Of a DNA stretch of 64,000 bases, positions 25,120-49,786 are shown piece by piece. The number at the start of each line of letters is the position of its first letter. The first letter of the stretch is position 1. Origin of the DNA: Phytohabitans maris. Its GTDB lineage: Bacteria; Actinomycetota; Actinomycetes; Mycobacteriales; Micromonosporaceae. Position numbers and translations under genes: made by a program. The stretch lies in assembly GCF_031085175.1 (NCBI RefSeq), contig NZ_JAVHUY010000007.1, forward strand, positions 186,001 to 250,000, written 5' to 3'. Under the pieces are notes generated by a model. It was given only the letters and a program-made list of their open reading frames with translations, was not told the DNA's origin and did not search any database.

Positions 25120-25157
25120 GGTCCATCTAGTGGACCGATAGTTCTGCTAGGCAGACC
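25120..25157. promoter_or_regulatory. paired 17-bp operators of the IclR regulon (esterase promoter)
   Basis: GGTCCATCTAGTGGACC (25120-25136) and GTTCTGCTAGGCAGACC (25141-25157) start 21 bp apart, about two helical turns. They match the palindromes found in the same arrangement at four other promoters in the window. They lie 162 bp upstream of the esterase start and could also affect the divergent QsuB-like gene. Confidence 0.75.
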
Positions 25158-25246
25158 ATAACGTGGACGGCGATCGGCCGGCAAGACCTGGTTTCACGGA
25201 GGTTTGGAGGCCCCACGCCTCCTTCCGATGCCCACCCGGCAGGCGT

Positions 25247-25275
25247 ATAACTAACGTACTAGTTCGTACATTAGG
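25247..25275. promoter_or_regulatory. TetR operator upstream of the QsuB-like gene
   Basis: This 29-bp sequence is identical, in reverse complement, to 49704-49732 beside a TetR gene. It contains an imperfect 22-bp palindrome TAAnGTAC-N6-GTACnTTA. It lies 55 bp before the start codon at 25330, as expected for a repressor site. Confidence 0.8.
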
Positions 25276-25329
25276 TCTCTGTCGGGAAGAACGCCGCGAC
25301 GTGCGGTCGTCGCCAGGAGGGCAGCTGGG

Positions 25330-28101
25330 ATGCTCACCGCCGCACAGGTCTGCGGGCCGGGATCCACCGCCGAGCCGCGCACGCCTCCGCGTACTGCCAT
25401 CGCCACCGTGTGTCTGTCCGGGAGCCTCGAGGACAAGCTGGCGGCCGCAGCCGCGGCCGGTTTCACCGGGGTGGAGCTCTTCGAGGACGACCTCGTCGCA
25501 TCGGATTGGTCGCCGGAGCGGGTGCGGCGGGAGTGCGATCGCCGCGGCCTGTCGATCGACCTCTATCAGCCGTTCCGGGACTTCGAGGCGGTGCCCCCTG
25601 ATCTCCTCCAGGCGAACCTGCGTCGGGCCGAGCGCAAGTTCGACCTGATGCAGCGGCTCGGTGCCGCCACGATGCTGGTCTGCTCGTCGGTCTGCGCGGA
25701 GGCGGTCGACGACGATGACCTCGCCGCCGAGCAGCTCCACGAGCTGGCCGCACGGGCGGCCGACCGCGGCATGCGGATCGCGTACGAGGCTCTGGCGTGG
25801 GGCCGCTTCGTAAACACGTACGCGCACGCCTGGCGGATCGTGCGCCACGCCGACCATCCCGCGCTGGGTCTGTGCCTGGACAGCTTCCATGTGTTGTCCC
25901 GCGGTGCCGACCCCGGCGGAATCCGGGTCATACCCGGGTCGAAGGTCTTTCACCTGCAACTGGCGGACGCGCCGCCGCTGAAGATGGACGTGGTGGAGTG
26001 GAGCCGGCACCATCGGCTCTTTCCCGGCCTGGGGTCGTTCGACCTGTCCGGCTTCGTCAGCCACGTGCTGACCACCGGGTACGCCGGCCCGTGGGCGCTA
26101 GAGGTGTTCAACGACGTCTACCGCCAGGCGGACCCGCGGCAGGCGGCGATCGACGGTATGCGATCTCTGTTGGTCCTTCAGGAGTCCATCGACCGCCGCG
26201 AGCCGGCCGCCGCCGGCCGCGAGGTGGTCCGGCCGGCCGGCTTGCCCGCGCCTCCTCGGTTGGGTGGCCTGGTGTTCACCGAGCTTGCCGTCGACGAGAT
26301 CTCCGGACCGGTTGTCGCGCGGACGTTGACCGCGCTCGGCTTCACCCACCGCGGACAGCATCGCTCCAAGCCGGTCCAGCTGTGGGAGCAGGCCGACGCC
26401 CGGATCCTGTTGAACTCCGCGCCACAAAGGACGGTCCCGCCGGGGACGGCGGCGATCTGCGCGGTGGCCGTGGAGAGCACGGATCCGACCGCTTCGGCTC
26501 TTCGGGCGCAGCGGCTGCTGGCGCCGGTACTGCCCCGGGTGCGCCAACCGGACGAAGCCGAGCTGAGCTCGGTGGCCGCCCCCGACGGGACCGCGGTCTT
26601 CTTCTGCCGCGGCGGCGCGGCGGACGAAGGGTGGCTGCACGACTTCGTTCCCACCGGGCGGACGCCACGATCCGACGGCTTGGTGACCGGAACCGACCAC
26701 ATCTCGCTCACCGAATCGGTGGACGACTTCGACCAGGTCGCGCTCTTCTACCGCTCGGTGCTCGGGCTGCGGTCCGGCACCACGACCGAGCTCGCCGCGC
26801 CGTTCGGCCTGATCCGCAGCCGGGCCGCGACCGACCCGGGCCATCGGGTCCGGATCACCCTCAACACCGCGCCGCTGCGCCGGGGCGCCTGGGCACCAAC
26901 GATTCCCAACCCGCAGCACATCGCGTTCGCCACGGACGACGCGATCGCCACCGCCACCGCCATGCGCCACCTCGGCGCCCCGCTGTTGAAGATTCCCGAC
27001 AACTACTACGACGACCTGGACGCCCGCCTGGCACCGCCGCCGCGGACGCTGGCGGCGCTGCGCGAGAACTCGATCCTCTACGACCGTGACGACCAGGGCG
27101 AGTACCTGCACTTCTATACGGAGATGCTGGGCTCCCGGGTGTTCTTCGAGGTGGTGCAGCGGATCGGCGGGTACGCCGGCTACGGCGCCGCGGGCAGCAT
27201 CCCGGTGCGGATGGCCGCGCACCGGCAGCGCCGGCTGATCGCGCTCCGCGAAGGCTCGCGGGCCGGGGACAGTGGCGCACACGAGTATTCGCTGGCGCAC
27301 CTGACCGCGCTGAGTCTGTCCCCGCCCGAGTTGGTGGAGGCCGCCGCGGAGGCCGGCTACCGGTATGTCGGCCTGCGCCTGACCCGGGTCACCGCGCAGG
27401 AGCCGCACCACCCACTCGCCACCGACCCGGCCTTGATGAGGACCACGAAGATTCGCCTCGCCGCCACCGGAATCGAGGTCCTGGACATCGAACTGGCCCG
27501 GATCAGCCCGCGCGAGGAGCCGCGTGACTTCCTCCGTTTCCTCGAGGCGGGCGCGGAGCTGGGCGCCCGGCACGTCATCACCCAACTGCCCGACCCGGAC
27601 CGCACCCGCAAGATCGACCGATTCGCCGAGCTGTGCCAACTGGCCAAGCCGCTCGGGCTCACCGTCGATCTCGAGTTTCCCTCGTGGACCGAGACCCCGG
27701 ACCTCACCGAGGCGACGCGTGTGCTGCGGGCAGCCGACCAACCCAACGCCGGCATCCTGGTCGACCTGTTGCACTTCGCCCGATCCGGATCCAGCATCGC
27801 CGACCTTCGTGACCTTCCGGCCGGCTGGTTCCACTTCGCCCACGTCTGCGACGCCCCGGCCGCCGTCCCCGCCACGATCGACGGTGTCATCCACACCGCA
27901 CGGTTCGAGCGGTTGTTTCCCGGCGAGGGCGGTATCGACGTGCACGGCATCCTCGCCGCTCTGCCACCCGGCATCCCGTACGCGCTGGAGATCCCCCGGG
28001 CGACACTCGTGGCCCAGGTCGGCGCGAAGGAGCACGCTCGCATGGCCATCGCCGCGGCCCGCGAGCATCTTGACCGGGCGCGGCGACGGCCAGCGGCATA
28101 G
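25330..28101 (+). CDS. QsuB-like 3-dehydroshikimate dehydratase with extra C-terminal TIM barrel
   Basis: A 923-residue, three-part enzyme. Residues about 20-290 are a sugar-phosphate-isomerase-type TIM barrel with the metal set of 3-dehydroshikimate dehydratases: Glu153 (AYEALAWG), Asp184 (CLDSFHV), Gln210 (HLQLAD) and Glu258 (LEVFND). Residues about 300-625 are a 4-hydroxyphenylpyruvate-dioxygenase-like VOC pair with His457, His530 and Glu607 as ligands. This order matches QsuB. Residues about 650-923 add a second TIM barrel with Glu782, Asp812, His838 and Glu887. The first part should turn 3-dehydroshikimate into protocatechuate; the role of the last barrel is unknown. A TetR operator lies 55 bp upstream. 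Confidence 0.85.
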   Translation: MLTAAQVCGPGSTAEPRTPPRTAIATVCLSGSLEDKLAAAAAAGFTGVELFEDDLVASDWSPERVRRECDRRGLSIDLYQPFRDFEAVPPDLLQANLRRAERKFDLMQRLGAATMLVCSSVCAEAVDDDDLAAEQLHELAARAADRGMRIAYEALAWGRFVNTYAHAWRIVRHADHPALGLCLDSFHVLSRGADPGGIRVIPGSKVFHLQLADAPPLKMDVVEWSRHHRLFPGLGSFDLSGFVSHVLTTGYAGPWALEVFNDVYRQADPRQAAIDGMRSLLVLQESIDRREPAAAGREVVRPAGLPAPPRLGGLVFTELAVDEISGPVVARTLTALGFTHRGQHRSKPVQLWEQADARILLNSAPQRTVPPGTAAICAVAVESTDPTASALRAQRLLAPVLPRVRQPDEAELSSVAAPDGTAVFFCRGGAADEGWLHDFVPTGRTPRSDGLVTGTDHISLTESVDDFDQVALFYRSVLGLRSGTTTELAAPFGLIRSRAATDPGHRVRITLNTAPLRRGAWAPTIPNPQHIAFATDDAIATATAMRHLGAPLLKIPDNYYDDLDARLAPPPRTLAALRENSILYDRDDQGEYLHFYTEMLGSRVFFEVVQRIGGYAGYGAAGSIPVRMAAHRQRRLIALREGSRAGDSGAHEYSLAHLTALSLSPPELVEAAAEAGYRYVGLRLTRVTAQEPHHPLATDPALMRTTKIRLAATGIEVLDIELARISPREEPRDFLRFLEAGAELGARHVITQLPDPDRTRKIDRFAELCQLAKPLGLTVDLEFPSWTETPDLTEATRVLRAADQPNAGILVDLLHFARSGSSIADLRDLPAGWFHFAHVCDAPAAVPATIDGVIHTARFERLFPGEGGIDVHGILAALPPGIPYALEIPRATLVAQVGAKEHARMAIAAAREHLDRARRRPAA

Positions 28102-28105
28102 GCTG

Positions 28106-30211
28106 TCAGTACACCTCGACCTTGCCGGTGGGGCGGGCGCTGTGCGGGTCGTTGAAGAAGTACTCGCCCTTCTTGGTGAAGGTGTACTGGAACGACTCGC
28201 CCGGCTGGAGGCGGATGTCGAAGAGGCCTTCGAAGAACTGGGTCGCGCCGTGGACGTGGATGTTGTCGGCCGGGTTGCGGAAGGTGACCGTGGTGCCGAC
28301 CGGTACCCGTAGGTGGGTGGGGGCCATCGCGTTGACCGCGGTCGACTCGGTGGTGCCGACCTGCCCGGTCGCGGCGTTGTAGGTGCGGGCGAGCACGATC
28401 GTGTTGTCGACGGCGATCCCCTCGACCGGTCCGCCGGAGACGGGGCGGCGCACGATTGGCGGCGGTGGTGTGGGGGCGGGTGCGACGGTGCCGCCGACCT
28501 TGAACGCCCACAGGTAGTCGCCGCGCGGCGCGGAGTCGCCGTACGGGATACCGGTGCCGCCGGCGTACACGGCGACGTACTGCACACCGTCCACTTCGTA
28601 CGCGATGGGGCTGCTGCTGATCGCCGCACCGGTCTGGAACCGCCACAGCTCGCGGCCGGTCCTGGCGTCGAGGCAGAGCAGGTTGCCGTCTGGCTGTCCG
28701 ATGTAGAGCAGGTCGCTGGCGGTGGTGAGGATGCCGTTGCCGTGGGCCAGGGAGTACGGCATCCGCTTCTTCCACCGCACCTGGTTGGTGCTCGGATCCA
28801 CGGCCACCACTCCGCCGGTCATGTACTCCCCCGGCGGCCGTAGTCCGTTGCTGCTCTCGGTCAGCGAGTGGGCGGCGGCCACGTACCCGTACCCGGTGTA
28901 GACGAGCTTGGTGCTGTGGCTGAACGACTGGTGGTTCCAGTCGGCGCCGCCGCCGTGGCCGGGGATGGACAGGATCGGCACGTCCCAGTGCGGGTCGTAG
29001 AGCTTGCCCCGCACGTAGTTGGGTACGGCGCGGTTGGGGTCGCCGGGCACCGCGGTGCCCAGTGGCTGGTCGACGACGCGGTTTTCGGTCCAGCCGCCCT
29101 GGCGGGGGAAGGGTTGAGTGGGCCAGGTCTTCTGGCGGGGTTCCTGCGGTACTGGCACCTCGTCGATGCCTAGTGGGGCGCTGCCGTCGGCGCGGTCGAG
29201 GATGAAGTACATGCCGGATTTGCTGCCGTAGACGACGAGCTTGCGCATCCGGCCGCGGATCCGCACGTCGGCCAGGACCGGCGCCATGCTGTTGTCCATG
29301 TCCCAGATGTCGTGGTGCACCGACTGGAAGTGCCAGCGGTAGGCGCCGGTCTTCAGGTCCAGGGCCACGAGCGAGTTGGCGAACAGGTTCTGGCCGCCGC
29401 GGGCGGAGCCGTCCTGTGAGGAGTTGTTGCCGCGGGCGTTGCCGAACGTCCAGTAGCTGAGCCCCAGCTCCGGGTCGAGGGCCGGGTGCAGCCACGGGGT
29501 GGCGCCGCCGACCTGCCAGGAGTCGCCCTCCCAGGTGTCGTTGCCGAACTCGCCCGGGCCGGGGGTGCCCCAGAAGTGCCAGACCACGTCGCCGTTCGCG
29601 GCGTCGAGGGCGAGTGCCGCGCCGCGGGCGCCGTCGTTGGTGCCGCAGTAGAGCATCCCGTCGTGGTAGGTGACGGCGACCTTCTCCACGTTGCCGTACC
29701 CGTTTACCTGCCGTTCCCAGGCGACCTGCCCGGTCCGTCGGTCCAGCGCGATCACCCAGTTGCCGCGGCCGTGGGTGTAGACCAGCCCTGCGCCGACGGC
29801 CACCCCGCGGCGGGTGAGGCTGCCGCGGGTCTGCTGGTAGGTCCACCGGGTCTGGCCGGTGGCACCGTCGACGGCGTGCACGTTGCCGAGGGCGGACTCG
29901 ATGTAGAGCACCCCGTCGACCGCGACCGCGGTGCTCTGGTTGGTGCCGGTGTTGAGGCCGCCCTCGATGCGGTTGACCCAGGCCGCGCCGAGGCGCTGGA
30001 CGTTGCCGCGGTGGATGCGGGCCAGGGACGAGTAGTTCTGGTTTCCCAGGTTGCCGCCGACCTTGGGAAAGTCGTGGCCGCCCGGGGTCGTGCACCGCGC
30101 TCGCGCACGGGTGCCGGCCGCTGCCGGGGCGGTGCCCGCCTCGGTGACGGCCACGCCGACCGCGGTCGCGGCGGCACCTTTGAGGAGGTCTCTTCGCTGG
30201 ATCTTTGCCAT
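28106..30211 (-). CDS. Tat-exported PQQ-dependent dehydrogenase with C-terminal cupredoxin-like domain (1)
   Basis: A 701-residue quinoprotein. The twin-arginine signal is MAKIQRRDLLKGAAATAVG. About 560 residues form the eight-bladed PQQ propeller, with W-docking repeats and the catalytic region SVHHDIWDMDNSMAPVLADV as in PQQ dehydrogenases. The last 100 residues fold like a plastocyanin (MAPTHLRVPVGTTVTFRNPA, HVHGATQF, YFFNDPHSARPTGKVEVY). The Cys and Met copper ligands are absent; the usual YxFxCxxH-type motif reads YFFNDPH. Paired IclR-regulon operators lie just upstream. Substrate likely an alcohol, sugar or hydroaromatic polyol. Paralogue of the enzyme at 45144. Confidence 0.88.
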   Translation of the reverse strand: MAKIQRRDLLKGAAATAVGVAVTEAGTAPAAAGTRARARCTTPGGHDFPKVGGNLGNQNYSSLARIHRGNVQRLGAAWVNRIEGGLNTGTNQSTAVAVDGVLYIESALGNVHAVDGATGQTRWTYQQTRGSLTRRGVAVGAGLVYTHGRGNWVIALDRRTGQVAWERQVNGYGNVEKVAVTYHDGMLYCGTNDGARGAALALDAANGDVVWHFWGTPGPGEFGNDTWEGDSWQVGGATPWLHPALDPELGLSYWTFGNARGNNSSQDGSARGGQNLFANSLVALDLKTGAYRWHFQSVHHDIWDMDNSMAPVLADVRIRGRMRKLVVYGSKSGMYFILDRADGSAPLGIDEVPVPQEPRQKTWPTQPFPRQGGWTENRVVDQPLGTAVPGDPNRAVPNYVRGKLYDPHWDVPILSIPGHGGGADWNHQSFSHSTKLVYTGYGYVAAAHSLTESSNGLRPPGEYMTGGVVAVDPSTNQVRWKKRMPYSLAHGNGILTTASDLLYIGQPDGNLLCLDARTGRELWRFQTGAAISSSPIAYEVDGVQYVAVYAGGTGIPYGDSAPRGDYLWAFKVGGTVAPAPTPPPPIVRRPVSGGPVEGIAVDNTIVLARTYNAATGQVGTTESTAVNAMAPTHLRVPVGTTVTFRNPADNIHVHGATQFFEGLFDIRLQPGESFQYTFTKKGEYFFNDPHSARPTGKVEVY

Positions 30212-30231
30212 GGGTCTCCCCTGATCGATAA

Positions 30232-30269
30232 GGTCCACCTGGTGGACCGATAGATCCGCTTGATGGTCG
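30232..30269. promoter_or_regulatory. paired 17-bp operators of the IclR regulon (PQQ dehydrogenase 1 promoter)
   Basis: GGTCCACCTGGTGGACC (30232-30248) is a perfect palindrome. GATCCGCTTGATGGTCG (30253-30269) starts 21 bp further. They lie 21-58 bp upstream of the PQQ dehydrogenase ATG (30211), overlapping the expected promoter. Confidence 0.8.
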
Positions 30270-30316
30270 CACGGTACGCTGGTTAACACGTTCGTGACAA
30301 GAGGGGCCTTGGCTGT

Positions 30317-31180: not shown

Positions 31181-31183
31181 CCG

Positions 31184-31894
31184 TCAGAGGCCGAGGTAGA
31201 TCTGGCGGACCCGGGGGTCTTCCCGGAGCTGCTCGGACGTGCCGTTCATGGCGACGATCCCGTTCTCCATCACCAGGCATTCGGTGGTGACCTCGAAGGT
31301 CAGCTTGGCGTTCTGTTCGACCAGCAGGATGCCCAGCCCGTCGCGGTTGAGCTTCTGCAGGACGGCGACGATGTTTTCGACGAGCTTTGGGGACAGGCCC
31401 ATCGACGGCTCGTCCAGCAGCATCAGGCGCGGGGCGGACATCAGCGCCCGGCCGATGGCGAGCATCTGTTGCTGCCCGCCTGACAGGGCGCCGGCGAGCC
31501 GGTGCCGCATCTCGCCGAGCACCGGGAAGAGGGTGTAGACCTCGTCGAGGGTGTCGAGGGTGGCGCCCTTCCACGGCTTGCTGTATGCGCCCAGGAGCAG
31601 GTTCTTCTCCACCGGCAGGCCGGGGAAGACGTGCCGGCCTTCGGGCACGTAGCCGATGCCGTACCGGACCATCTTGCGGCCGGGCACCCGGGTCAGGTCG
31701 TGCTCGCCGAACCGGATGGAGCGGACCGTGCGGGGTACGAGCCCCATCAGCGCTTTGAGGGTGGAGGTCTTGCCCGCCCCGTTGGCCCCGATGATGCCGA
31801 CCGACTGTCCAGGTGCGACAGTGAACCCGATGTCCTGGGCCGCGCAAACGCCACCGTAGTGGACGGACAGCCCGTCGACCACGAGGGTGGTCAC
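31184..31894 (-). CDS. branched-chain/organic-acid ABC transporter ATPase, LivF-type
   Basis: A 236-residue ATPase. It shows Walker A GANGAGKTSTLKALMG, signature ALSGGQQQMLAIGRALM, Walker B LMLLDEPSMGLSP and LVEQNAKLTFEV, typical of LivF. The GTG start overlaps the stop of the LivM-LivG gene (GTGA at 31891-31894). In this context the HAAT-family importer more probably carries an aromatic or hydroxy acid than an amino acid; that is inference from neighbours. Confidence 0.92.
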   Translation of the reverse strand: MTTLVVDGLSVHYGGVCAAQDIGFTVAPGQSVGIIGANGAGKTSTLKALMGLVPRTVRSIRFGEHDLTRVPGRKMVRYGIGYVPEGRHVFPGLPVEKNLLLGAYSKPWKGATLDTLDEVYTLFPVLGEMRHRLAGALSGGQQQMLAIGRALMSAPRLMLLDEPSMGLSPKLVENIVAVLQKLNRDGLGILLVEQNAKLTFEVTTECLVMENGIVAMNGTSEQLREDPRVRQIYLGL

Positions 31895-33717: not shown

Positions 33718-34583
33718 GCGCGGTTCACCGTCCTTTCCCCGAAGATGCCGGTCGGCCGGACCATGATGATCACGGTGAAGACCAGGAACGTGACCAGTTC
33801 CGAGTAGCCCTGGAAGTGGCCGGCGGTGAAGCCGTCGAGCACCCCGATGCACAGGCCGCCGATGATCGCGCCGGGAATGCTGCCGAAGCCGCCGAGGATC
33901 GCCGCGGCGAACCCCTTGATGCCGAGCGTGCCGCCCATCGCCGGGCTGACGTACAGCAGCGGGCCGACCAGCCCGCCGGCGAGGGCGGCGAGTCCGGCGC
34001 CGATCATGAACGCGATGGAGTTGCTGCGGCCCACGTGGATGCCGACCGCGGTGGCCGCCTGGTGGTCCATGGCGACGGCTTGCATCGCGGCGCCCCGCTT
34101 GGTGCGCTGTAGGAACAGCACCAGCACGGCAGTGGCGGCCGCGGCGATGGCGAGCACGACCAGGTCGTAGGTGCGGATCCGGATGCCGAACACGTCCAGC
34201 GGCGCGCCTGGCACGGGTGAGGGCACCGCCCGGCCGGTGGCGCCCCAGATGATGATCGCGAGGGCCTCCAGGACGATGCCGAACCCGATCGTGCCGATGA
34301 GCATCAGGTCGAAGTCCTTGTTTTCCAGCGGGCGCAGCACGCGTTCGATGACGATGCCGATAAGGCCGGTCACCACCAGAGCGATCACCATCGCCGCCGC
34401 GAACGGCAGCTTCGCGGACAGGTAGAAGGTGGAGGCGAAGTAGGCGCCGATCATGACGACGTTGCCGTGCGCGAAGTTGACCAGCCCCATGGTGCGGTAG
34501 ACCAGCGAGAAGCCCATCGCGACCAACGCGTAGATCGCGCCGAGGCTCAGCCCTCCGATGAACGTCTGGATGGTGACTTGCAT
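33714..34583 (-). CDS. ABC transporter permease, LivH-type
   Basis: A 289-residue inner-membrane permease with eight helices. LivH motifs are MGFSLVYRTMGLVNFAHGNVVMIGAY at the N-terminus and GLAALAGGLVGPLLYVSPAMGG then GGFGSIPGAIIGGLCIGVLDGF near the end. It partners the LivM half of the downstream fusion. It lies 66 bases after the binding-protein gene. Confidence 0.93.
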   Translation of the reverse strand: MQVTIQTFIGGLSLGAIYALVAMGFSLVYRTMGLVNFAHGNVVMIGAYFASTFYLSAKLPFAAAMVIALVVTGLIGIVIERVLRPLENKDFDLMLIGTIGFGIVLEALAIIIWGATGRAVPSPVPGAPLDVFGIRIRTYDLVVLAIAAAATAVLVLFLQRTKRGAAMQAVAMDHQAATAVGIHVGRSNSIAFMIGAGLAALAGGLVGPLLYVSPAMGGTLGIKGFAAAILGGFGSIPGAIIGGLCIGVLDGFTAGHFQGYSELVTFLVFTVIIMVRPTGIFGERTVNRA

Positions 34584-34649
34584 GGTTCTCCCTGTGGGTG
34601 GGCAAACCCCGGGGCCGCGGTGAGCGCCGCCCCGGGGATCACGACATCG

Positions 34650-35810: not shown

Positions 35811-35842
35811 GACACATCACCTCGTGGGTTTCGGGGGTGGGT

Positions 35843-39099: not shown

Positions 39100-39116
39100 G
39101 ATCAATCCTCTCCAGT

Positions 39117-39154
39117 GATCCGCTGGACGGTACTTCTGGACCGTTGTGCGGACT
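39117..39154. promoter_or_regulatory. paired operators between ALDH operon and IclR gene
   Basis: GATCCGCTGGACGGTAC (39117-39133) and GGACCGTTGTGCGGACT (39138-39154) start 21 bp apart; the second fits best in reverse orientation. They lie in the divergent region of the IclR gene at 39246, which marks that protein as the likely binder of all five operator pairs. Confidence 0.75.
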
Positions 39155-39245
39155 AGGTGTAACGTACGGGCGGCGAGGCCCGCTGGCAATAGCCGGTTCC
39201 GAAACCGTTACGCGGACGTGAACCCGTCCGGGGAGGCACGAGAAC

Positions 39246-40058: not shown

Positions 40059-40106
40059 CCGGCCGGTCCGGATGCCTGTCCGCGGCGCCCACGAAGGAGT
40101 ACGCGA

Positions 40107-41282
40107 ATGCCTGACCGACCGCTCAGCGGTGTCCGGGTCCTCGACCTGACCAACGTTCTGGCCGGGCCCTACTGCAGCTACCAGCTGATGCTGCTCGGCG
40201 CCGAGGTGGTCAAGGTCGAGATCCCGGGCCACGGCGACCTCGCGCGACGCCTCGGCCCGGATCCGGAGCTGAACGAGGCAGGCATCGGTGCCTCGTTCCT
40301 GGCCCAGAACGCCGGCAAGAAGTCGGTGGAGCTGGATCTCAAGGACGCCGCCGACCGGGCCCGGTTTCAGCACATGCTGGGCGAGGCGGACGTGCTGCTG
40401 GAGAACTTCCGGGCCGGCACGCTGGCCCGGATGGGCTACGGCTGGGATCGGCTGCGCGAGCTCAACCCGCGGCTGGTCTACTGCGCGATCTCGGGCTTCG
40501 GTCAAAGCGGGCCGATGAGCCAGGCCCCGGCGTACGACCAGATCATCCAGGGCCTGTCCGGGATGATGAGCATCACCGGCACCTCCGACACCGCCCCGCT
40601 GCGGGTCGGGTTTCCGGTCTGTGACTCGGTCGGCGGGCTGGTCGCCGCGCTCTCGATCGCGGCGGCGCTGGCCGGCCGGGCCCGCACCGGGCAAGGCGTC
40701 TTCCTCGACGTGTCCATGTTGGAGGCGTCCCTGTCCGCGATGGGCTGGGCCGTCTCCAACTATCTGGTCAGCGGCGTACCGCCGGAGCCGATGGGCGACC
40801 AGAACGCCACCGCCGCGCCGTCCGGCACGTTCGACGCCGCCGACGGGCCGTTGAACATCGCCGCCAACAAGCAGGAACAGTTCGAGACCCTGTGCCGGCT
40901 GGTCGGTCGGGAGGACCTGATCGGCGACGTCCGGTTTGCCGCCCGCGACGCTCGCAAACGCCACCGCGCCGCGCTGAACGCCGAACTCAACGCGGCACTG
41001 CGCAAGCGGCCAGCAGCCGAGTGGGAGACCGCACTGTCGCGCGCCGGCGTCCCAGCGGCGCGGATCCTGACCGTCCCGGAAGCCGTCGAGCTGGACCAGC
41101 TGGCGCATCGGGGCTTCTTCACCGACCTGCCGTTTCCGGACGGATCGCCCCGGACACTGCGGGTCAGCGGCAACGGCGTGCTCGTCGACGGGCGGCCGCT
41201 GCGCCCGACCAACCCACCACCGCTGCTGGGCCAGCACAACAGCGACCTGCGTCATCCCGCTACCTCCGGAGAAGCCGCATGA
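40107..41282 (+). CDS. CaiB/BaiF-family CoA-transferase
   Basis: A 391-residue type-III CoA-transferase. It begins PLSGVRVLDLTNVLAGPYCSYQLMLLGAEVVKVEIPGHGD. It has SFLAQNAGKKSVELDLKD and the region VLLENFRAGTLARMGYGWDRL with the usual catalytic Asp region earlier than residue 180. GQGVFLDVSMLEASLSAMGW closes the active site. It should move CoA to a carboxylic acid. Its stop overlaps the start of the citryl-CoA-lyase-like gene, so the two probably act in sequence: activation, then C-C cleavage. Confidence 0.92.
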   Translation: MPDRPLSGVRVLDLTNVLAGPYCSYQLMLLGAEVVKVEIPGHGDLARRLGPDPELNEAGIGASFLAQNAGKKSVELDLKDAADRARFQHMLGEADVLLENFRAGTLARMGYGWDRLRELNPRLVYCAISGFGQSGPMSQAPAYDQIIQGLSGMMSITGTSDTAPLRVGFPVCDSVGGLVAALSIAAALAGRARTGQGVFLDVSMLEASLSAMGWAVSNYLVSGVPPEPMGDQNATAAPSGTFDAADGPLNIAANKQEQFETLCRLVGREDLIGDVRFAARDARKRHRAALNAELNAALRKRPAAEWETALSRAGVPAARILTVPEAVELDQLAHRGFFTDLPFPDGSPRTLRVSGNGVLVDGRPLRPTNPPPLLGQHNSDLRHPATSGEAA

Positions 41283-42082
41283 CCACGGTGCAGGACGTAT
41301 CCGACTGGTGGGCCACTGGTGTGTCGCGCGTCGAGCCGGGGGTGATCGAGCTGCGTGGCCGCCCGGTCCAGGAGCTCATCGGCACCACCAGCTTCGCTTC
41401 GACGATCTGGCTGATGCTGCGCGGTGATCTGCCCACCGCCACCCAGGAACGGCTGCTGGAGGCGGCGCTGGTGGCGTCGGTGGACCACGGTCCGCACGCG
41501 CCGTCGATCGCGGCCGCGCGGATCGCCGCGACCTGCGGTGTGGGCCTGAACAACGCGGTGGCGACCGGGGTCAACCTGCTCGGTGACACGCACGGCGGTG
41601 CCGGCCAGCAGTGCCTGGAGCTGCTCGCGGACGTGCTGGCCCGCCAAGCCCGCGGCGACAGCCTGGAGACGGCCGCCACGGCCGCCATCGCGGCCTGGCG
41701 GGACCGTTCCCGGTACCTGCCCGGCTTCGGTCATCGCTTCCACACCGTCGATCCCCGCCGCGAGCCGCTGCTGTCCCTTGTGGACGAGGCGGTGTCGGAG
41801 GGCGCGGTGAAAGGGGACATCCTGCGGGCGGGCCGGGCGGTCGAGGCCGTCCTCAACGAGGGTCGGGCCCGCCCGATCCCGATGAACGTGGACGGTGCCA
41901 CCGCGATCATCTACGGCGAGCTGGGTTTTCCCGCACCACTGGCGCGTGGGCTCTTCGTACTCGGCCGCAGCGTGGGGATCCTCGCGCACGCCTGGGAGGA
42001 AAGCCAGCAGGGCCGGCGAAACAAAGGGCCCATGCCGCCCGGCATCGCACCGACGTTCCTGGGATCCCCGGCTACAGGGTGA
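41279..42082 (+). CDS. citryl-CoA lyase-like protein (citrate synthase superfamily)
   Basis: A 267-residue protein, far shorter than citrate synthase. It corresponds to the C-terminal lyase domain of ATP-citrate lyase and free citryl-CoA lyases. Shared features are LIGTTSFASTIWLMLRGDLPT, the His of LLGDTHGGAGQQCLE, YLPGFGHRFHTVDPRREPLL (second His and CoA-binding) and MNVDGATAIIYGELGFP. It should cleave or form a 3-hydroxyacyl-CoA of the citryl type. Coupled to the CaiB gene (ATGA at 41279-41282) and converging with pqqB by an 11-bp overlap. Substrate unknown. Confidence 0.82.
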   Translation: MTTVQDVSDWWATGVSRVEPGVIELRGRPVQELIGTTSFASTIWLMLRGDLPTATQERLLEAALVASVDHGPHAPSIAAARIAATCGVGLNNAVATGVNLLGDTHGGAGQQCLELLADVLARQARGDSLETAATAAIAAWRDRSRYLPGFGHRFHTVDPRREPLLSLVDEAVSEGAVKGDILRAGRAVEAVLNEGRARPIPMNVDGATAIIYGELGFPAPLARGLFVLGRSVGILAHAWEESQQGRRNKGPMPPGIAPTFLGSPATG

Positions 42083-42911
42083 GGGTGAGGCCGTCCTCGG
42101 CAACGTCCTCGCCTCCTCCGACCGCCAGCGGGTTGGTGTTGTTCAGGTGGGTGTACAGCAGCCGCCGCACCCCGGGCCGGGTCAGCGTCCGGCGCGACAC
42201 GCTCACCGGCAGGTGTCCCATGGCGGTGGCCGAACGGCCCCCGCCGGTGGCCCGGACCATCTCGTCCTCGTCCAGGAAGGTGCCGTCCAGCAGCGCGCAG
42301 TCGGCACCCTCCACAAGAGACGGGTCGAACGCCGGCAGGCAGGGTGCGTAGACGAGCACACCACCGGTACGGGGATCGGTGATCCGGTACGCCACCACCC
42401 AGTCGCCGCCGTCGGCGTCGGCCGCGTACCGCGGTCGCTTGGCGCCAACCACCGTGGCGCACACCCGCAGGCCGCCGTTCAAGTGGATGTCTTCGCCAGG
42501 AGCCAGTGCCTGCCACGACACGTCGGTGTAGGCCGCCAGCGCCCGGCGCAACCCGAGCGGACCGTCCAGCGCGGCGAGCACGGTGGCGCTGGCGTAGACC
42601 GACAGGGCCTCAGCCTCGCGCAGGGTGAGCAGGCCCAGCGCATGGTCCAGCTCGGCGGTGCTCAGCAGGACACCCCGGATCGGGGTGTCGCGTCGCCCCG
42701 GGCCCGGCGCCAACTCCGGCGCGGAGAGGATCTGGGCTCGCAGGTCGGGCGAGGCGTTCAGCAGGTACCACGACCGCTGGTCGCCGCTGATCGCCACGCA
42801 ATCCTGGCTGCGCGCCACGCCCGCGCGCCGGGCCGCCGCACAGCCGTCGCAGGCGCAGTTCCACTGTGGAACGCCGCCGCCCGCGGCGGTGCCGAGCAGC
42901 CGGACTTTCAT
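42072..42911 (-). CDS. pqqB: PqqB, PQQ biosynthesis metallo-hydrolase/hydroxylase
   Basis: A 279-residue metallo-beta-lactamase-fold protein. Its start MKVRLLGTAAGGGVPQWNCACDGC is diagnostic for PqqB, with the structural zinc cysteines. Later parts are SWYLLNASPDLRAQIL, VLLSTAELDHALGLLTLREAE and LLYTHLNNTNPL. PqqB acts on the tyrosine ring of the processed PqqA peptide. Last gene of the pqq operon; its ATG overlaps the pqqDE stop by four bases. Confidence 0.95.
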   Translation of the reverse strand: MKVRLLGTAAGGGVPQWNCACDGCAAARRAGVARSQDCVAISGDQRSWYLLNASPDLRAQILSAPELAPGPGRRDTPIRGVLLSTAELDHALGLLTLREAEALSVYASATVLAALDGPLGLRRALAAYTDVSWQALAPGEDIHLNGGLRVCATVVGAKRPRYAADADGGDWVVAYRITDPRTGGVLVYAPCLPAFDPSLVEGADCALLDGTFLDEDEMVRATGGGRSATAMGHLPVSVSRRTLTRPGVRRLLYTHLNNTNPLAVGGGEDVAEDGLTLTL

Positions 42912-44302
42912 CGCGGCCGCCGCGGTATGGCCGGTGGCCGGGCGGCGGCCGCGGCCGTGACGGCGCCCGCCATCAGCCCGTGGTGCGCAGACAGGCCGCA
43001 GGCCGGGTCGGTGGCCGCCGGGTCGCCGGTGAGCTGGTACGCCTGGCAACGGCAGCCGCCGAAATCGACGTGCCGCAGGTCGCAGGCGCGACATGGGTCC
43101 GGCATCCAGGCCGTGCCACGAAACCGGTTGAAGGCCGGCGACTCGTACCAGATTTCGGCGAGCGAGGCCGCCCGGGCGTTGACCACACCCAGGTCCGGCA
43201 GCTGGCCGGCGGCCAGGCAGGGCAGCACGTCCCCGTTCGGGGCCACGACGAGCTGGCGGCTGCCCCAGCCGTACATGCAGGGTTTGGGCCGGTCGGCGTG
43301 GTAGTCGGCAGCGACGTAGACGATCTCTATCTGGTGGCCGTGCCGGGCTTGGACGGTCTGGGCGGCCGCTCGCGCCCGCTCGACCTGAGCGGCGCTGGGC
43401 ATCAACGCGGCCCGGTTGCGCCAGCCCCAGCCGTAGTACTGGGTGTGCGCCAGTTCCAGGCGGTCGGCTCCCCAGGCCACACCGAGCTCGGCGATGGCCT
43501 CCAGCCGGTCGATGTTGCCCGCGTGCAGGACGGCGTTGACGGTGAACGCCAGACCGCTGGCCCGCACCAGGGCCGCGGACGCCCGCTTGCGGTCGTGGGC
43601 GCGGATCCCGGCGAACGCGTCGGCCGGGCCGGCGTCGGCGTCCTGGATGGACAGTTGCAGGTGGTCCAGGCCCGCCGCGACGAGTGCGTCGAGCCTGGCC
43701 GCGTCGAGTGGGACGCCGCTGGTGACAAGGTTCGTGTACATGCCGAGGACGTGCGCGTGCCCGACCAGCTCGGCCAGGTCAGGACGGAGCAGCGGCTCGC
43801 CGCCGGAGAAGTGCGCCTGCAGCACACCTAGCCCGCGTGCCTCGTCGAGCACCCGCCGCCAGTCCATCGTGGACAGCTCATCCCGGTATGCGGAAAGCTC
43901 CACCGGGTTCGAGCAGTAGGCGCAGCGCAGCGGGCAGCGGTAGGTGAGCTCGGCCAGCAGCCCGGTCGGCACCGGCAGCCGCGGCACTATGGCTGCCGGC
44001 GCCGGCGGCTCCGGTCCGGACACCGGCACACCGGTGCCGTCCACGGTGAGCACCCGCCGGCCCACCAGGTCGGCGACGAGCGTGCGCACGTCCTCGACGC
44101 GGACGCCGTCGAACTCTCCGGCCAGGTCGCCGGCGATTTCCGCGACGGTACCGCCGGTGCAGCGGGTGACCACGGCACCGGCGGTCTCGTTGAGCAGCAG
44201 CACGCCTTCCGGGTACTGCAGCGCCCGCTGGCCGCGCACCCGGTCGTACGTCAGCCGCACGCCTCGACGCAGCGTGGGCCGGGCCGCGGCGGTGACGGTC
44301 AT
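42908..44302 (-). CDS. pqqE: PqqD-PqqE fusion: peptide chaperone plus radical SAM enzyme
   Basis: A 464-residue fusion. Residues 1-90 are PqqD (LRRGVRLTYDRVRGQRALQYPEGVLLLNETAGAVVTRC, then VAEIAGDLAGEFDG), which binds PqqA. Residues about 110-455 are PqqE, with the radical SAM cluster CPLRCAYC, FSGGEPLLRPDL, and C-terminal auxiliary-cluster cysteines (PCMYGWG, CRACDLRHVDFGGCRCQAYQL, DPACGLS). PqqE links the Glu and Tyr of PqqA. Both ends are coupled by ATGA overlaps to pqqC and pqqB. Confidence 0.95.
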   Translation of the reverse strand: MTVTAAARPTLRRGVRLTYDRVRGQRALQYPEGVLLLNETAGAVVTRCTGGTVAEIAGDLAGEFDGVRVEDVRTLVADLVGRRVLTVDGTGVPVSGPEPPAPAAIVPRLPVPTGLLAELTYRCPLRCAYCSNPVELSAYRDELSTMDWRRVLDEARGLGVLQAHFSGGEPLLRPDLAELVGHAHVLGMYTNLVTSGVPLDAARLDALVAAGLDHLQLSIQDADAGPADAFAGIRAHDRKRASAALVRASGLAFTVNAVLHAGNIDRLEAIAELGVAWGADRLELAHTQYYGWGWRNRAALMPSAAQVERARAAAQTVQARHGHQIEIVYVAADYHADRPKPCMYGWGSRQLVVAPNGDVLPCLAAGQLPDLGVVNARAASLAEIWYESPAFNRFRGTAWMPDPCRACDLRHVDFGGCRCQAYQLTGDPAATDPACGLSAHHGLMAGAVTAAAAARPPAIPRRPR

Positions 44303-45018
44303 GGCCGCGCGTTCGCGTAGTCGATGGCGTCCAGCATCGCCCGCAGCACGTCGCACTTGAACGCCAGCGCCGCGACGGCCGCGTCCTGCTCCTCGCGGCT
44401 GACACAGTGGGTCAGCACCAGGTCCAGCGTGTATCCGCTCTCCGCGCGCACCGTGGGGACGCGGCGTTCGAAGTAGGCGTACCCGTCCGGCTTGATCCAG
44501 TCGTAGTGGCGTCGCCACGCGACCACCCGGCCGGCCATCAGGTCGGGAGCGAACAGCTCGGTGAGCGCGGCGGCGGCACCCTGCTTCCACGGCCGGGTCC
44601 GGCAGAAGGCGACGTAGGCGTCGACCGCGAACCGGACACCGGGCAGCACGTGCCGTTCGTCGAGCACCTGCCGCCGGTCGAGCCCGACGGCCTCGGCGAG
44701 GACGAGCCAGTCTTCCAGCCCACCCTCACCGCCGGCGTTGCCATCCTGCCGTTCAGGTCCGTCCTGCCAGAGGATCCGCTCGACCCACCGGCGGCGTACC
44801 TCGGGCAGTGGGCAGTTGGCCACGATGGCCGCGTTCTTCTGGGACATGTGCCGCTGGTAGTACCAGCGGTTGGCCACCCACGCGCGCACCTCGTCCGGCG
44901 TGCACGCACCAGCGTGCAGCCGGACGTGGAACGGGTGCCGGTCCCAGTAACGCACCGACAGGCCACGCAGTCGCGCCTCGAACGCCTCCCGGCTCAGCGA
45001 CCGCGGGTCGCCAGCCAC
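44299..45018 (-). CDS. pqqC: PqqC, pyrroloquinoline-quinone synthase
   Basis: A 239-residue helical oxidase. Motifs include YWDRHPFHVRLHAG, ANRWYYQRHMSQKNAAIVANCP and WIKPDGYAYFERRVPTVRAESGYTLDLVL, all conserved in PqqC. It performs the final ring closure and eight-electron oxidation to PQQ. GTG 45018 is preferred because it gives normal length; it overlaps the pqqA end by 25 bases. Confidence 0.95.
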   Translation of the reverse strand: MAGDPRSLSREAFEARLRGLSVRYWDRHPFHVRLHAGACTPDEVRAWVANRWYYQRHMSQKNAAIVANCPLPEVRRRWVERILWQDGPERQDGNAGGEGGLEDWLVLAEAVGLDRRQVLDERHVLPGVRFAVDAYVAFCRTRPWKQGAAAALTELFAPDLMAGRVVAWRRHYDWIKPDGYAYFERRVPTVRAESGYTLDLVLTHCVSREEQDAAVAALAFKCDVLRAMLDAIDYANARP

Positions 45019-45128
45019 GGCCCGGTGTCCCCGGAGTACGCGGTCACCTCGGGTCGGGTCTCCAGGCACTCGATCCGTGGCCGGGTCCAGGCCCGCCGTG
45101 TCTTGGTCTGCTGTTTGGTGGCCGCCAT
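44994..45128 (-). CDS. pqqA: PqqA, PQQ precursor peptide
   Basis: A 44-residue peptide: MAATKQQTKTRRAWTRPRIE, then CLETRPEVTAY with the conserved Glu27 and Tyr31 (E-V-T-A-Y) that become PQQ, then SGDTGPWLATRGR. ATG 45128 is eight bases after GGAGG; a second ATG at 45134 would be too close. It is longer at the C-terminus than the usual 23-30 residues. It lies 15 bases after the PQQ dehydrogenase gene and overlaps pqqC. Confidence 0.93.
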   Translation of the reverse strand: MAATKQQTKTRRAWTRPRIECLETRPEVTAYSGDTGPWLATRGR

Positions 45129-45143
45129 GGCCATCACCTCCAA

Positions 45144-47273
45144 CTAATAGACGACGATCTTTCCGGTGCTCTGTGGGTAGATGGCGTCGTTGAAGAAGAA
45201 CTCCCCACGCTTGTTGAACGTGTGCTGGTGCGACTGCCCGGGCAGCAGCGTCCCGGTGTCGAACTCGTCCTCCCAGAACGACACCGCCGCATGGGCCGAG
45301 GCGTTGCCGGCCGGGTTGACGAAGGTGACCGTCGTGCCGAGCGGCACGCGCAGGTGCTGGGGCGCCATCGCGTTCTGCGCGATGAGGTTTTCGACGGCGC
45401 CGGGCGCCTGCGCCGCGGCGTCCCAGACCCGGCCGAGCGTCACGGTCGTGGTGCCGGTGACCGCGACCGCGCGGATCTGGTTGCGCTTGGACGGCGGTGT
45501 CGGCGCCACGGCCGGCGGCACGGTGCCGCCGAGCCTGAACGCCCAGAGGTGGTCGCCCTTGGGGATGTCCGGATACGGCAGGCCGTTGCCGCCGGCGAAC
45601 ACGGCCAGGTACTGCTCACCGTCCACTTCGTACGCGACCGGGCTGGTGTGCACACCGGCGCCGGTCTGGAAGCTCCACAACACGGTCCCGTCCCGGTCGT
45701 CCATCGCGTGCAGGACGCCGTCCGGACCGCCCTGGAACATCACCCCACCGCCGGTGGTGAGGATGCCGTTGCCGTGCGCCAGCGACCACGGCCCCTCCCG
45801 CCGCCAGACCACCGTGTTCGTGCGCGGGTCGACCGCCGCGATGCCGCCGGAGAAGTACTCCCCCAGCGGGCGGGAGGTGTTGACCCGCCCGTCGCGGGCG
45901 TTGGAGAAGCCGGAGTTGATCAGGCCGTAGCCGACGTAGATCCAGCCGGTGTGCGGGTTGAACGACAGATGTGACCAGTCCGCGCCGCCGCCCGCGCCGG
46001 GGAAGATGACCACCGGCCGGTCCCAGTGCGGGGTGAACAGCCCGCCGGCCTCGTAGAACGGCACCGGGCGGGTGGAGTTGGCATAGTCCGGATAGGGCGA
46101 GACGAACGGCTCCCCGCCCGGGATGGGCTGGGTCAGCGACGTCTTCTGCCGTGGCTCCTGCGGCACCGGGCGCTCCTCGACGCCGTGCACCGGCCGCCCG
46201 GTGGCCCGGTCGAGGATGTAGTAGTAGCAGGTCTTGCTGCCGTACACGACAACCTTGCGGGTCCGTCCGCCGATCCGCAGGTCGACCAGGACCGGGGCCA
46301 TGACGTTGTCCATGTCCCAGATGTCGTGGTGCACCGACTGGAAGTGCCAGCGCCGCCGCCCGGTCTTGGCGTCGATCGCCACGATCGAGTTGGCGAACAG
46401 GTTGTCACCGGCCCGGCTCGACCCGTCGGTGCGCGGGTACGGGCCGCTGAACGTCCAGTACACCAGGCCGAGGTCCGGGTCGATCGCCGGATGGATCCAC
46501 GGCACCGCCCCGCCGGTCTGCCACGACTCGCCCTCCCAGGTGTCGTGGCCGAACTCGCCCGGACCGGGCGCGCCCCAGAACCGCCAGGCGATCTCGCCGG
46601 TGCGCGCGTGCAGCGCGTACGCCCGGCCGCGGGCGCCGCCGGTGCTGCCCTGCATGCCGACGTAGATCAGCCCGTCCCAGTAGACGACCGCCCCGGCCAG
46701 CGTGCCGGTCAGGCCACCGCATTGGCCATTTTGCGGGTCGCAGCCGCTGTCGTTGCCGCCCTCGTCGGTGGTCAACAGCTGCTTCTGCCACACCACCTGA
46801 CCGGTGGCCTGGTCCAGGGCGTACACGATGTTGGCGCCGGAGGTGGAGAAGACCAGCCCTTCGCCGAGCGCGACGCCGCGCATGTTCGTGGTGCGCCCGC
46901 CCAGGTTGGTCTTCCACTTCACCGTGCCGGTGCGCCCGTCCACGGCGAAGACATTCTGCTGGGTGGTCTGCACGTACAGCACGCCGTCCTGGACCACGAC
47001 CGTGCTCTGCTGGTGCCGGCTCGTGTCGCCGCCCTCGAGGTTGACGTGCCAGGCGCCGCCGAGCCGGTGCACGTTACGCCGGGTGATGGCCTTGAGCGGC
47101 GAGTGGTTCTGGTTGCCCAGGTCGCCGCAGACCTTGGGAAAGTCGCGGCCGATCCGGCCGAATCCGGCCGGCTGGCGCGGCACCCCCATCGCCGCCGCTG
47201 GGCTCTGACCCATGACCGCCGCCGAGGTCGCACCCGCCGAGGTCGCCAGAAACGCGCGTCGCTGCATACCCAT
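45144..47273 (-). CDS. Tat-exported PQQ-dependent dehydrogenase with C-terminal cupredoxin-like domain (2)
   Basis: A 709-residue quinoprotein and paralogue of the protein at 28106. The signal is MGMQRRAFLATSAGATSAAV. The PQQ propeller contains SVHHDIWDMDNVMAPVLVDL and an insert with two cysteines (DSGCDPQNGQCGG) absent from the paralogue. The C-terminal 95 residues look like a cupredoxin (MAPQHLRVPLGTTVTFVNPAGN, FFFNDAIYPQSTGKIVVY) but all usual copper ligands are missing at the end. It is the first gene of an operon that continues into pqqA-pqqC-pqqDE-pqqB, so enzyme and cofactor are made together. Paired operators lie at 47284-47321. Confidence 0.9.
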   Translation of the reverse strand: MGMQRRAFLATSAGATSAAVMGQSPAAAMGVPRQPAGFGRIGRDFPKVCGDLGNQNHSPLKAITRRNVHRLGGAWHVNLEGGDTSRHQQSTVVVQDGVLYVQTTQQNVFAVDGRTGTVKWKTNLGGRTTNMRGVALGEGLVFSTSGANIVYALDQATGQVVWQKQLLTTDEGGNDSGCDPQNGQCGGLTGTLAGAVVYWDGLIYVGMQGSTGGARGRAYALHARTGEIAWRFWGAPGPGEFGHDTWEGESWQTGGAVPWIHPAIDPDLGLVYWTFSGPYPRTDGSSRAGDNLFANSIVAIDAKTGRRRWHFQSVHHDIWDMDNVMAPVLVDLRIGGRTRKVVVYGSKTCYYYILDRATGRPVHGVEERPVPQEPRQKTSLTQPIPGGEPFVSPYPDYANSTRPVPFYEAGGLFTPHWDRPVVIFPGAGGGADWSHLSFNPHTGWIYVGYGLINSGFSNARDGRVNTSRPLGEYFSGGIAAVDPRTNTVVWRREGPWSLAHGNGILTTGGGVMFQGGPDGVLHAMDDRDGTVLWSFQTGAGVHTSPVAYEVDGEQYLAVFAGGNGLPYPDIPKGDHLWAFRLGGTVPPAVAPTPPSKRNQIRAVAVTGTTTVTLGRVWDAAAQAPGAVENLIAQNAMAPQHLRVPLGTTVTFVNPAGNASAHAAVSFWEDEFDTGTLLPGQSHQHTFNKRGEFFFNDAIYPQSTGKIVVY

Positions 47274-47283
47274 CCCGCCTCGT

Positions 47284-47321
47284 GGTCCGCTAGACGGACT
47301 AGATGATCCGCTTGACGGACG
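47284..47321. promoter_or_regulatory. paired operators of the IclR regulon (PQQ dehydrogenase 2/pqq operon)
   Basis: GGTCCGCTAGACGGACT (47284-47300) and GATCCGCTTGACGGACG (47305-47321) start 21 bp apart and lie 11-48 bp before the dehydrogenase start. They are the closest pair to each other in the set and define the core GRTCCGCTWGACGGAC. Confidence 0.8.
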
Positions 47322-47429
47322 AACCATAAGCCTGATCATGGCGTCGCCACAAGACTCGGGATGGAAACAAATCCTTCACCTCGACGTACCAGAGGCTTGC
47401 TGGGCGGGCACACCGCCGATATATTCGGC

Positions 47430-47467
47430 AAACCTCTAGACGGTACATGCGGTCCACATAGCGGACC
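47430..47467. promoter_or_regulatory. paired operators of the IclR regulon (ThuA-like gene promoter)
   Basis: AAACCTCTAGACGGTAC (47430-47446) and GGTCCACATAGCGGACC (47451-47467) start 21 bp apart, 55-92 bp upstream of the ThuA-like gene at 47522. With the pair at 47284, this 250-bp divergent region holds two operator pairs, one per gene. Confidence 0.75.
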
Positions 47468-49703: not shown

Positions 49704-49732
49704 CCTAATGTACGAACTAGTACGTTAGTTAT
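49704..49732. promoter_or_regulatory. TetR operator between quinate/shikimate dehydrogenase and TetR genes
   Basis: This 29-bp sequence is the exact reverse complement of 25247-25275. The palindromic core is TAATGTAC-N6-GTACGTTA. It overlaps the ribosome site region of the dehydrogenase gene and lies 55 bp before the TetR start at 49787, so it could repress both. Confidence 0.82.
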
Positions 49733-49786
49733 CGCGTGCGGCACAATCAAACGTCAAGACCTCACCAACAAGTTGGAGCGAACGCG

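Follow-up and report, generated by a model that had tools for sequence, protein, structure and literature searches.

Paired 17-bp palindromes in a Phytohabitans maris gene cluster as probable tandem operators of its IclR-family regulator

Gene cluster and palindrome pairs

The window, which is the whole stretch of Phytohabitans maris DNA analysed here (64,000 nucleotides, or 64 kb; contig NZ_JAVHUY010000007.1, positions 186,001 to 250,000), carries a cluster of oxidation, cofactor, uptake and secreted-enzyme genes together with a gene for an IclR-family regulator, iclR, at 39246. Five promoter regions of the cluster each contain two copies of a 17-bp palindrome with the consensus GGTCC-RYYNRRY-GGACC, set two helical turns apart. 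These pairs, here considered as candidate operators, are listed with their scores from a matrix of all sites and their scores when held out of that matrix. No strand is assigned to them.

25120..25157: operator pair 1, at the esterase promoter and flanked on its far side by a divergent QuiC-like gene; 37.1 bits, held out 28.0
30232..30269: operator pair 2; 36.0 bits, held out 32.2
39117..39154: operator pair 3, common to the aldehyde dehydrogenase (ALDH, minus strand) and iclR (plus strand) promoters; 29.5 bits, held out 21.7; conserved in orthologue loci
47284..47321: operator pair 4; 37.7 bits, held out 34.7
47430..47467: operator pair 5; 32.9 bits, held out 28.3

The genes of the cluster are as follows. 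PQQ is pyrroloquinoline quinone and ThDP is thiamine diphosphate.

22958..24958, minus: secreted esterase, polyhydroxybutyrate (PHB)-depolymerase/feruloyl-esterase-like, with a twin-arginine translocation (Tat)-like signal; Pfam and NCBIfam matches below cut-offs, and two weak PDB matches, of which one is to a feruloyl esterase
25330..28101, plus: QuiC-like 3-dehydroshikimate dehydratase domain fused to a domain like 4-hydroxyphenylpyruvate dioxygenase (HPPD); NCBIfam QuiC model NF042435, 605.8 bits, below the cut-off of 1200 and so not filed as QuiC
28106..30211, minus: PQQ dehydrogenase 2 (PQQ-DH2), with a Tat-like signal and a WDMD metal motif, no CxxCH
31184..32056, minus: ATP-binding cassette (ABC) transporter ATPase near the Liv genes
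33714..34583, minus: Liv-type permease
34650..35810, minus: Liv-type solute-binding protein
35843..37582, minus: ThDP-dependent enzyme, acetolactate-synthase-like; start approximate
37609..39099, minus: ALDH; Pfam Aldedh, 457.9 bits
39246..40058, plus: IclR-family regulator, proposed to read every pair and to repress its own gene, from Pfam domains and phylogenetic footprint
40107..41282, plus: class III CoA-transferase (CaiB family); Pfam, 391.8 bits
41279..42082, plus: citryl-CoA-lyase-like gene; NCBIfam NF004864, 415.4 bits (cut-off 261); best PDB match 6hxp, a citryl-CoA lyase
42072..45069, minus: pqqB (42072-43094), fused pqqD/E (42908-44590) and pqqC (44299-45069); NCBIfam equivalogs
45144..47267, minus: PQQ dehydrogenase 1 (PQQ-DH1), first gene of the pqq operon, with a twin-Arg-like signal and WDMD motif
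47522..48496, plus: secreted ThuA-domain protein; Pfam ThuA, 185.8 bits; N-terminal signal-like sequence

The 39246 protein carries both IclR domains of Pfam (HTH_IclR, 50.7 bits, cut-off 22; IclR_C, 84.5 bits, cut-off 24). The pqq genes exceed the cut-offs of their equivalog models (PqqB 305.2 against 245, PqqC 269.1 against 240, PqqE 489.9 against 381.35 and PqqD 55.6 against 46), and the 41279 gene exceeds that of the citryl-CoA lyase equivalog, which makes it a predicted lyase of this kind. It lies directly 3' of the CoA-transferase gene, was overlooked when the longest open reading frames were picked, and was missing from the first-pass annotation of this DNA. Matches to the NCBIfam QuiC, BhcR, ThDP and CoA-transferase models fall below cut-off. 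The PDB chains nearest to the CoA-transferase are YfdE, formyl-CoA transferase and succinate--hydroxymethylglutarate CoA-transferase. A Pfam scan of 32132-33490 (minus), where more Liv parts were expected, matched no family. The likely starts differ from those of the longest frames for the esterase (ATG 24958), PQQ-DH2 (ATG 30211), ALDH (ATG 39099) and PQQ-DH1 (ATG 47267/47273).

Palindromes are diagnostic as pairs

The first-pass annotation had located ten 17-mers in five pairs, held that their regular spacing cannot be chance, and proposed a weight-matrix scan of the genome and of relatives. All ten 17-mers are present at the positions it gave, 21 bp apart from start to start and with a 4-bp gap in each pair. 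A symmetric matrix was built from the ten sites and pairs were scored at 21 bp across the window. The five pairs score 29.5-37.7 bits and the next-best 21-bp pair scores 8.6 with the all-site matrix. As this matrix was made from the sites themselves, each pair was also held out in turn and scored with the other four. Held-out pairs reach 21.7-34.7 bits, compared with 6.7-11.3 bits for the best other 21-bp position in the 64 kb, in keeping with the claim against chance. Some single sites are degenerate (25141, 7.9 bits; 47430, 9.0 bits; 39138, 10.3 bits, all held out), so that only the pair is diagnostic.

The genome of P. maris (9.87 Mb, 95 contigs) was then searched on both strands with a sequence-only model of the five pairs. 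Among the 150 scored of 4697 first-look candidates, exactly the five window pairs reach an expectation value of E<=1. The single degenerate motif with at most one mismatch gives 97 matches in this genome, which is chance level when compared with 81 in a reversed control. The signal is therefore the pair and not the single palindrome. The first-pass annotation had named a motif common outside the cluster as grounds for giving up its regulon, and the pair search does not point that way.

Conservation and spacing in relatives

An IclR orthologue (E<=1e-30) was found in 7 of the 61 genomes searched, P. maris included. Seven relative loci in six genomes, with two copies in G005, each hold a 21-bp pair beside iclR that scores 25.9-34.1 bits. 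The pair model was run, with 150 scored candidates each, on 16 of the 61 genomes, comprising all seven with the orthologue and nine picked from the 54 without it. The best pair has E values from 1.2e-4 to 0.0074 in all seven orthologue genomes; in the nine others, it has E values of 0.03-0.69 in six and there is no match in three.

A wider scan of species genomes used the best 80 of 141 confirmed orthologue loci, with 66-77% identity in the best segment (one with 62%) and flanks of at most 10 kb. This set overlaps the earlier genomes, as at least three records duplicate G001, G023 and G026. It spans nine named families: Micromonosporaceae, Streptosporangiaceae, Thermomonosporaceae, Pseudonocardiaceae, Streptomycetaceae, Actinospicaceae, Kribbellaceae, Glycomycetaceae and Nakamurellaceae. 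In 59/80 loci the 450 bp upstream of iclR hold a 21-bp pair scoring 20 bits or more, and two more loci have one of at least 15 bits; the reversed control has 0/80 at the higher threshold, with a maximum of 18.7. Pairs reaching 20 bits number 156 across the 80 loci, and the reversed control has no such pair. When spacings from 17 to 59 bp were scanned at 22 bits or more, 145 pairs were found at 21 bp and at most nine at any other spacing.

The remaining 19 loci fall into two kinds. In fourteen, two strong sites stand 31 or 32 bp apart (28.5-35.5 bits), and in five there is no pair. A pair of at least 20 bits at 21, 31 or 32 bp thus stands at the iclR promoter in 73/80 orthologue loci. The 14 loci are on one side of a branch with 96/98 support, which holds 15 Actinoplanes-group sequences and within which 31 and 32 bp interchange. 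Helical phase, not exact distance, is kept, because this one clade uses three turns. Moreover, 12 of the 14 three-turn loci hold other pairs of at least 20 bits at 21 bp, which suggests that the same regulator tolerates both two and three helical turns. The constant 21 bp of the first-pass annotation holds for the window (5/5 pairs) and breaks down in these 14/80 relative loci. Two strains of an otherwise pairless Nonomuraea clade, PA05 and N. thailandensis, also hold an iclR copy with a pair.

Promoter layout

Promoters were predicted from the sequence next to the pairs.

25155..25184, minus: predicted esterase promoter TTGCCG-N18-TATGGT; its -10 overlaps the operator by 3 nt
30271..30300, minus: predicted PQQ-DH2 promoter TTGTCA-N18-TACCGT; ends 1 nt from the operator
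39161..39189, minus: predicted ALDH promoter TTGCCA-N17-TACGTT; ends 6 nt from the operator
39137..39165, plus: predicted iclR promoter TGGACC-N17-TAACGT, with operator site 2 as its spacer
47323..47352, minus: predicted PQQ-DH1 promoter TTGTGG-N18-TATGGT; ends 1 nt from the operator
47397..47425, plus: predicted ThuA-like gene promoter TTGCTG-N17-TATATT; ends 4 nt from the operator

The predicted TTGnnn-N17/18-TANNNT promoters stand on the upstream side of the window operators. This geometry recurs in relatives. On the ALDH side, the predicted promoter lies 5-8 nt from the operator in 69/93 distinct regions. Over the window and the loci together, TTG-N16-19-TANNNT is found within -6 to 12 nt on either side of 128/175 pairs, compared with 0.23% of random positions. 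Of the promoters that occur on one side only, 121 are directed toward a recognised gene and 6 are not.

As the first-pass annotation had described, one pair lies in the divergent region of the IclR gene, where it is common to the ALDH and iclR promoters. On the iclR side, TANNNT is positioned 17 or 18 nt past a hexamer at the site 2 edge in 72/74 regions (TGGACC in 47), so that site 2 would fill the spacer between -35 and -10. The divergent iclR and ALDH promoters have overlapping -10 boxes on opposite strands at 39160-39166 (TAACGTA), and the iclR -10 overlaps an opposite-strand TANNNT in 68/74 regions. The spacer T before site 2 lies outside the palindrome, is nearly invariant in 47 ALDH-type regions at 21 bp, and is the first base of the iclR hexamer. 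This predicted layout points to repression and autorepression, and agrees with a repressor that shuts off its own gene along with both divergent promoters.

Pair 1 had been assigned to the esterase, and the predicted promoter does point at that gene; we add that the pair lies between the esterase and the divergent QuiC-like gene. As an operator for the latter it was rejected, with TTG-N16-19-TANNNT toward QuiC in 0/6 QuiC-side regions. The distances between neighbouring pairs also show some helical phasing (39 distances, vector length 0.47 at 10.5 bp). This is suggestive of looping, for which we make no claim because the loci are related.

Targets in relatives

In annotated blocks of relatives, pairs precede esterase, PQQ dehydrogenase, ALDH/CoA-transferase, ThuA, BNR/QuiC and iclR genes. 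Target calls in the 80 loci used 23 reference families, six of them drawn from the relatives themselves, and 169 of 170 pairs (at least 20 bits; 21, 31 or 32 bp) adjoin a gene of a recognised cluster family. The most frequent neighbours are ALDH/IclR (81), PQQDH1/ThuA (15), DctM/IclR (11), ALDH/CoA-transferase (11), citryl-CoA-lyase-like/ThuA (10) and ThuA with an unrecognised partner (10), with others making up the rest. The genes that the first-pass annotation had placed behind the pairs were correct and its list was incomplete. In the window, a pair also stands next to iclR; in relatives, pairs stand next to the CoA-transferase gene, the citryl-CoA-lyase-like gene and a tripartite ATP-independent periplasmic (TRAP) transporter. 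In the genome G001, a strong pair (36.3 bits) is found on another contig, before an esterase. A further strong pair in G001, likewise away from the cluster contig (C401, L045:8221-8258; 32.6 bits), was rejected as a target outside the cluster, since it sits at the 3' side of an MMPL transporter gene and no target can be named.

The gene content of the 80 loci is dominated by ThDP (72), ALDH (72), CoA-transferase (71), citryl-CoA-lyase-like (68), ThuA (61) and Liv (59-60) families, followed by PQQDH2 (35), QuiC-like (33), shikimate dehydrogenase (28), PQQDH1 (17), TetR (16) and esterase (8). The citryl-CoA-lyase-like gene (E<=1e-60) occurs in 8/61 genomes, namely the seven with IclR and G010 (69% complete). 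Its presence or absence agrees with that of IclR in 60/61 genomes.

Reader of the pairs

The best explanation, which we hold with considerable confidence, is that the IclR-family regulator at 39246-40058 uses the pairs as tandem operators to act on the cluster promoters. The pairs travel with its orthologue and stand directly downstream of, or overlap, predicted promoters in the cluster and its relatives; this protein is very probably their reader. Conservation at 73/80 loci, the split of E values among the 16 genomes and the match to a published motif lend sequence-based support to the single IclR regulon of export, oxidation, cofactor and uptake genes that had been put forward. In the mechanism we propose, two IclR dimers would bind one face of the DNA as a tetramer, as the spacing suggests. 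Bound IclR would occlude or block the promoters of the esterase, of both PQQ dehydrogenases with pqqBCDE, of the ALDH-ThDP-Liv operon and of thuA. It would also block the promoter of iclR, the CoA-transferase and citryl-CoA lyase, its own promoter, in which operator site 2 forms the spacer between -35 and -10. Release would come from an inducer, which may be a plant-derived acid of the quinate/shikimate or a related type, or else an oxidation product.

Several points weigh against this explanation. No promoter pattern accompanies 47/175 pairs. Five of the 80 orthologues (L059, L065, L067, L077 and L102) have no pair near iclR; four of them (L059, L065, L067 and L102) form one Nonomuraea clade, in whose flanks the 22 other reference families were not found (L102 has only 4.6 kb). 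Because the loci used for counting pairs were selected by their iclR gene, a neighbourhood of cluster genes is to some degree expected, and in each of the 16 genomes of the genome-wide pair test 150 candidates were scored. BhcR, whose NCBIfam model is nearest to the 39246 protein, is described in passages of PMC11323563 as an activator in vivo, which makes the proposed repression less certain.

IclR might thus read the pairs and yet activate, or play a dual role, occupying its own promoter in the absence of inducer and switching on the enzyme promoters once inducer is present. The same passages of PMC11323563 suggest a dual role for BhcR, whose model the 39246 protein matches at 108.5 bits (cut-off 350). 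At many ALDH, PQQ-DH, ThuA, DctM and esterase promoters, however, the operators overlap the predicted -10 or follow it on the start-site side, a position suited to blocking and not to recruitment. We consider either role unlikely.

A much less probable reader is the TetR-family regulator encoded nearby (49736-50434). It belongs to the cluster and stands next to iclR in some relatives, and TetR proteins can bind tandem palindromes. Its homologue is found in the flanks of only 16/80 loci, however, and 57 of the 64 loci without it nearby keep the pair at iclR (within flanks of at most 10 kb, which a distant tetR would escape). On this co-occurrence we set TetR aside as the reader. The promoter of the TetR gene itself (49706) carries a different 22-bp palindrome, which is also found before QuiC (25252). 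Finally, single palindromes occur at chance level, as would be expected of a dispersed repeat or chance resemblance without any regulator. For the pairs this is very improbable, given how they score when held out, their regular helical spacing, their restriction to one cluster, their geometry relative to promoters and their conservation in many genera.

PQQ dehydrogenases and lanthanide signature

Both window PQQ dehydrogenases have a WDMD motif, with an extra Asp two residues past the catalytic Asp. Asp occupies this place in 42 of 46 homologues examined, the other four being unreadable by regular expression. The quinohaemoproteins 1kb0 and 1yiq have WDYT here in alignments with PQQDH2. The adjacent Cys pair near PQQ is the usual hallmark of quinoprotein alcohol dehydrogenases. 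Adjacent Cys residues, the Cys-pair feature of lanthanide-dependent PQQ alcohol dehydrogenases, are absent from both window enzymes, and for this reason we ascribe to them a putative lanthanide signature and not membership of that class. The CxxCH haem motif is likewise absent from both. Each has an extra C-terminal stretch of ~100 residues, cupredoxin-like by eye and with incomplete copper ligands.

A possible catabolic route

The cluster brings PQQ synthesis, a citryl-CoA-lyase branch and secreted dehydrogenases of putative lanthanide type together with one uptake system, and so suggests a catabolic pathway not yet assigned. NCBIfam and PDB searches yield families and no substrates, and the substrate and step order given here are proposals. 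The secreted PQQ dehydrogenases would oxidise a cyclic or tertiary-hydroxy plant acid (quinate-like) released by the esterase. The ThDP enzyme would break a C-C bond adjacent to a keto group, and ALDH would oxidise the resulting aldehyde to a citrate-like acid. The CoA-transferase would activate this acid for the citryl-CoA-lyase-like enzyme, giving acetyl-CoA and an oxo-acid. That the whole is an undescribed actinomycete route bypassing the beta-ketoadipate pathway, with one IclR tetramer in control through helically phased operators, is a speculative and rather doubtful proposal.

Second palindrome and other features of the window

A second, unrelated 22-bp palindrome, TAAYGTAC-N6-GTACRTTA, is found at 25252-25273 (before QuiC) and at 49706-49727 (between the shikimate dehydrogenase gene and tetR). 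With at most two mismatches, it occurs in 18/80 relative loci and in none of the reversed controls, and 17/19 occurrences are near the start of a shikimate dehydrogenase/TetR, QuiC, Liv binding protein or lyase gene. It is probably the operator of another regulator. That this is TetR's own operator is perhaps so, and remains a guess because only 7 of the 18 loci hold a TetR homologue in their flanks. Beyond the cluster, the window contains a pSAM2-like integrative element with helix-turn-helix regulators (51503-59049) and a transfer-messenger RNA gene.

51503-52035: weak CcdA/PemK-like pair, below Pfam cut-offs
55403-57172: RepSA replication protein of the pSAM2-like element
57675-58916: integrase, beside tRNA-Ala (58972-59049)
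61305-61680, minus: tmRNA gene

Comparison with known systems

The operator is of a known kind. The main text of Suvorova & Gelfand 2021 (PMC8222616) gives the IclR group-1 motif as GKTYCRYW3-4RYGRAMC. It reports tandem sites at distances of 18-22 nt for 94 orthologous groups, an over-representation of three- and four-turn distances, and a quinate/shikimate gene set among the regulogs. The ten window sites match 11-17 of the 17 positions of the odd-length form GKTYCRYW3RYGRAMC (6.6 expected), and 288 distinct 17-mers match this consensus at a mean of 13.5 positions. The 21-bp spacing falls within the published range of 18-22 nt centre to centre in 5/5 window pairs and is dominant in relatives. 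The predicted operator is thus of the textbook IclR group-1 tandem design and is ordinary for the family.

The target set of the regulon, in contrast, looks new. No description of this regulon or cluster (ALDH, ThDP enzyme, CoA-transferase, citryl-CoA lyase, Liv and PQQ genes) was found in the literature searched, which covered titles and the starts of abstracts, with most subscription papers and supplements outside. Neither the word PQQ nor the word acetolactate appears in the main text of PMC8222616. What the present analysis provides, for an uncharacterised IclR of many soil actinomycetes, is a defined predicted operator, promoter layout and target list.

Among single regulators, passages of PMC11323563 describe BhcR of Paracoccus denitrificans, which resembles the 39246 protein in family, in its position divergent from the target operon and in being the nearest NCBIfam model. 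It differs in its target enzymes, its single palindromic candidate site and its activator role, and the 39246 protein stays far below the cut-off of its equivalog (NF045644). Passages of PMC8222616 also name TtgV and PcaU/PobR as members of the family, and passages of PMC9732521 describe GylR as a further actinomycete example with a different motif. On the PcaR/PcaU/PobR subfamily model TIGR02431, the 39246 protein scores 102.0 bits (cut-off 284.75). TtgV and PcaU/PobR use cooperative tetramer or multi-box operators with other motif layouts, in other pathways. The best solved relative of the orthologue profile is PDB 2o0y, an IclR-type regulator (206.3 bits; the next reaches 81.0), which we take to be from Rhodococcus RHA1.

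The PQQ dehydrogenases share the WDxD motif with its additional Asp with XoxF-type lanthanide enzymes, and according to passages of PMC10875860 several XoxF types require this Asp to use lanthanides. Unlike XoxF-type enzymes, they have the C-terminal extension and no haem motif, and with solved XoxF and quinoprotein ethanol dehydrogenases they reach only about 100-200 bits.

Compared with the group-1 tandem operators of PMC8222616, then, the present sites share the consensus, the tandem spacing and the quinate/shikimate link. They differ in the near invariance of C4 and G14 and in targets that include PQQ dehydrogenases, PQQ synthesis and citryl-CoA lyase. They also differ in that the spacing at a single promoter switches within an orthologous group, and this change from two to three turns in one clade amounts to a natural spacing experiment on IclR tetramers.

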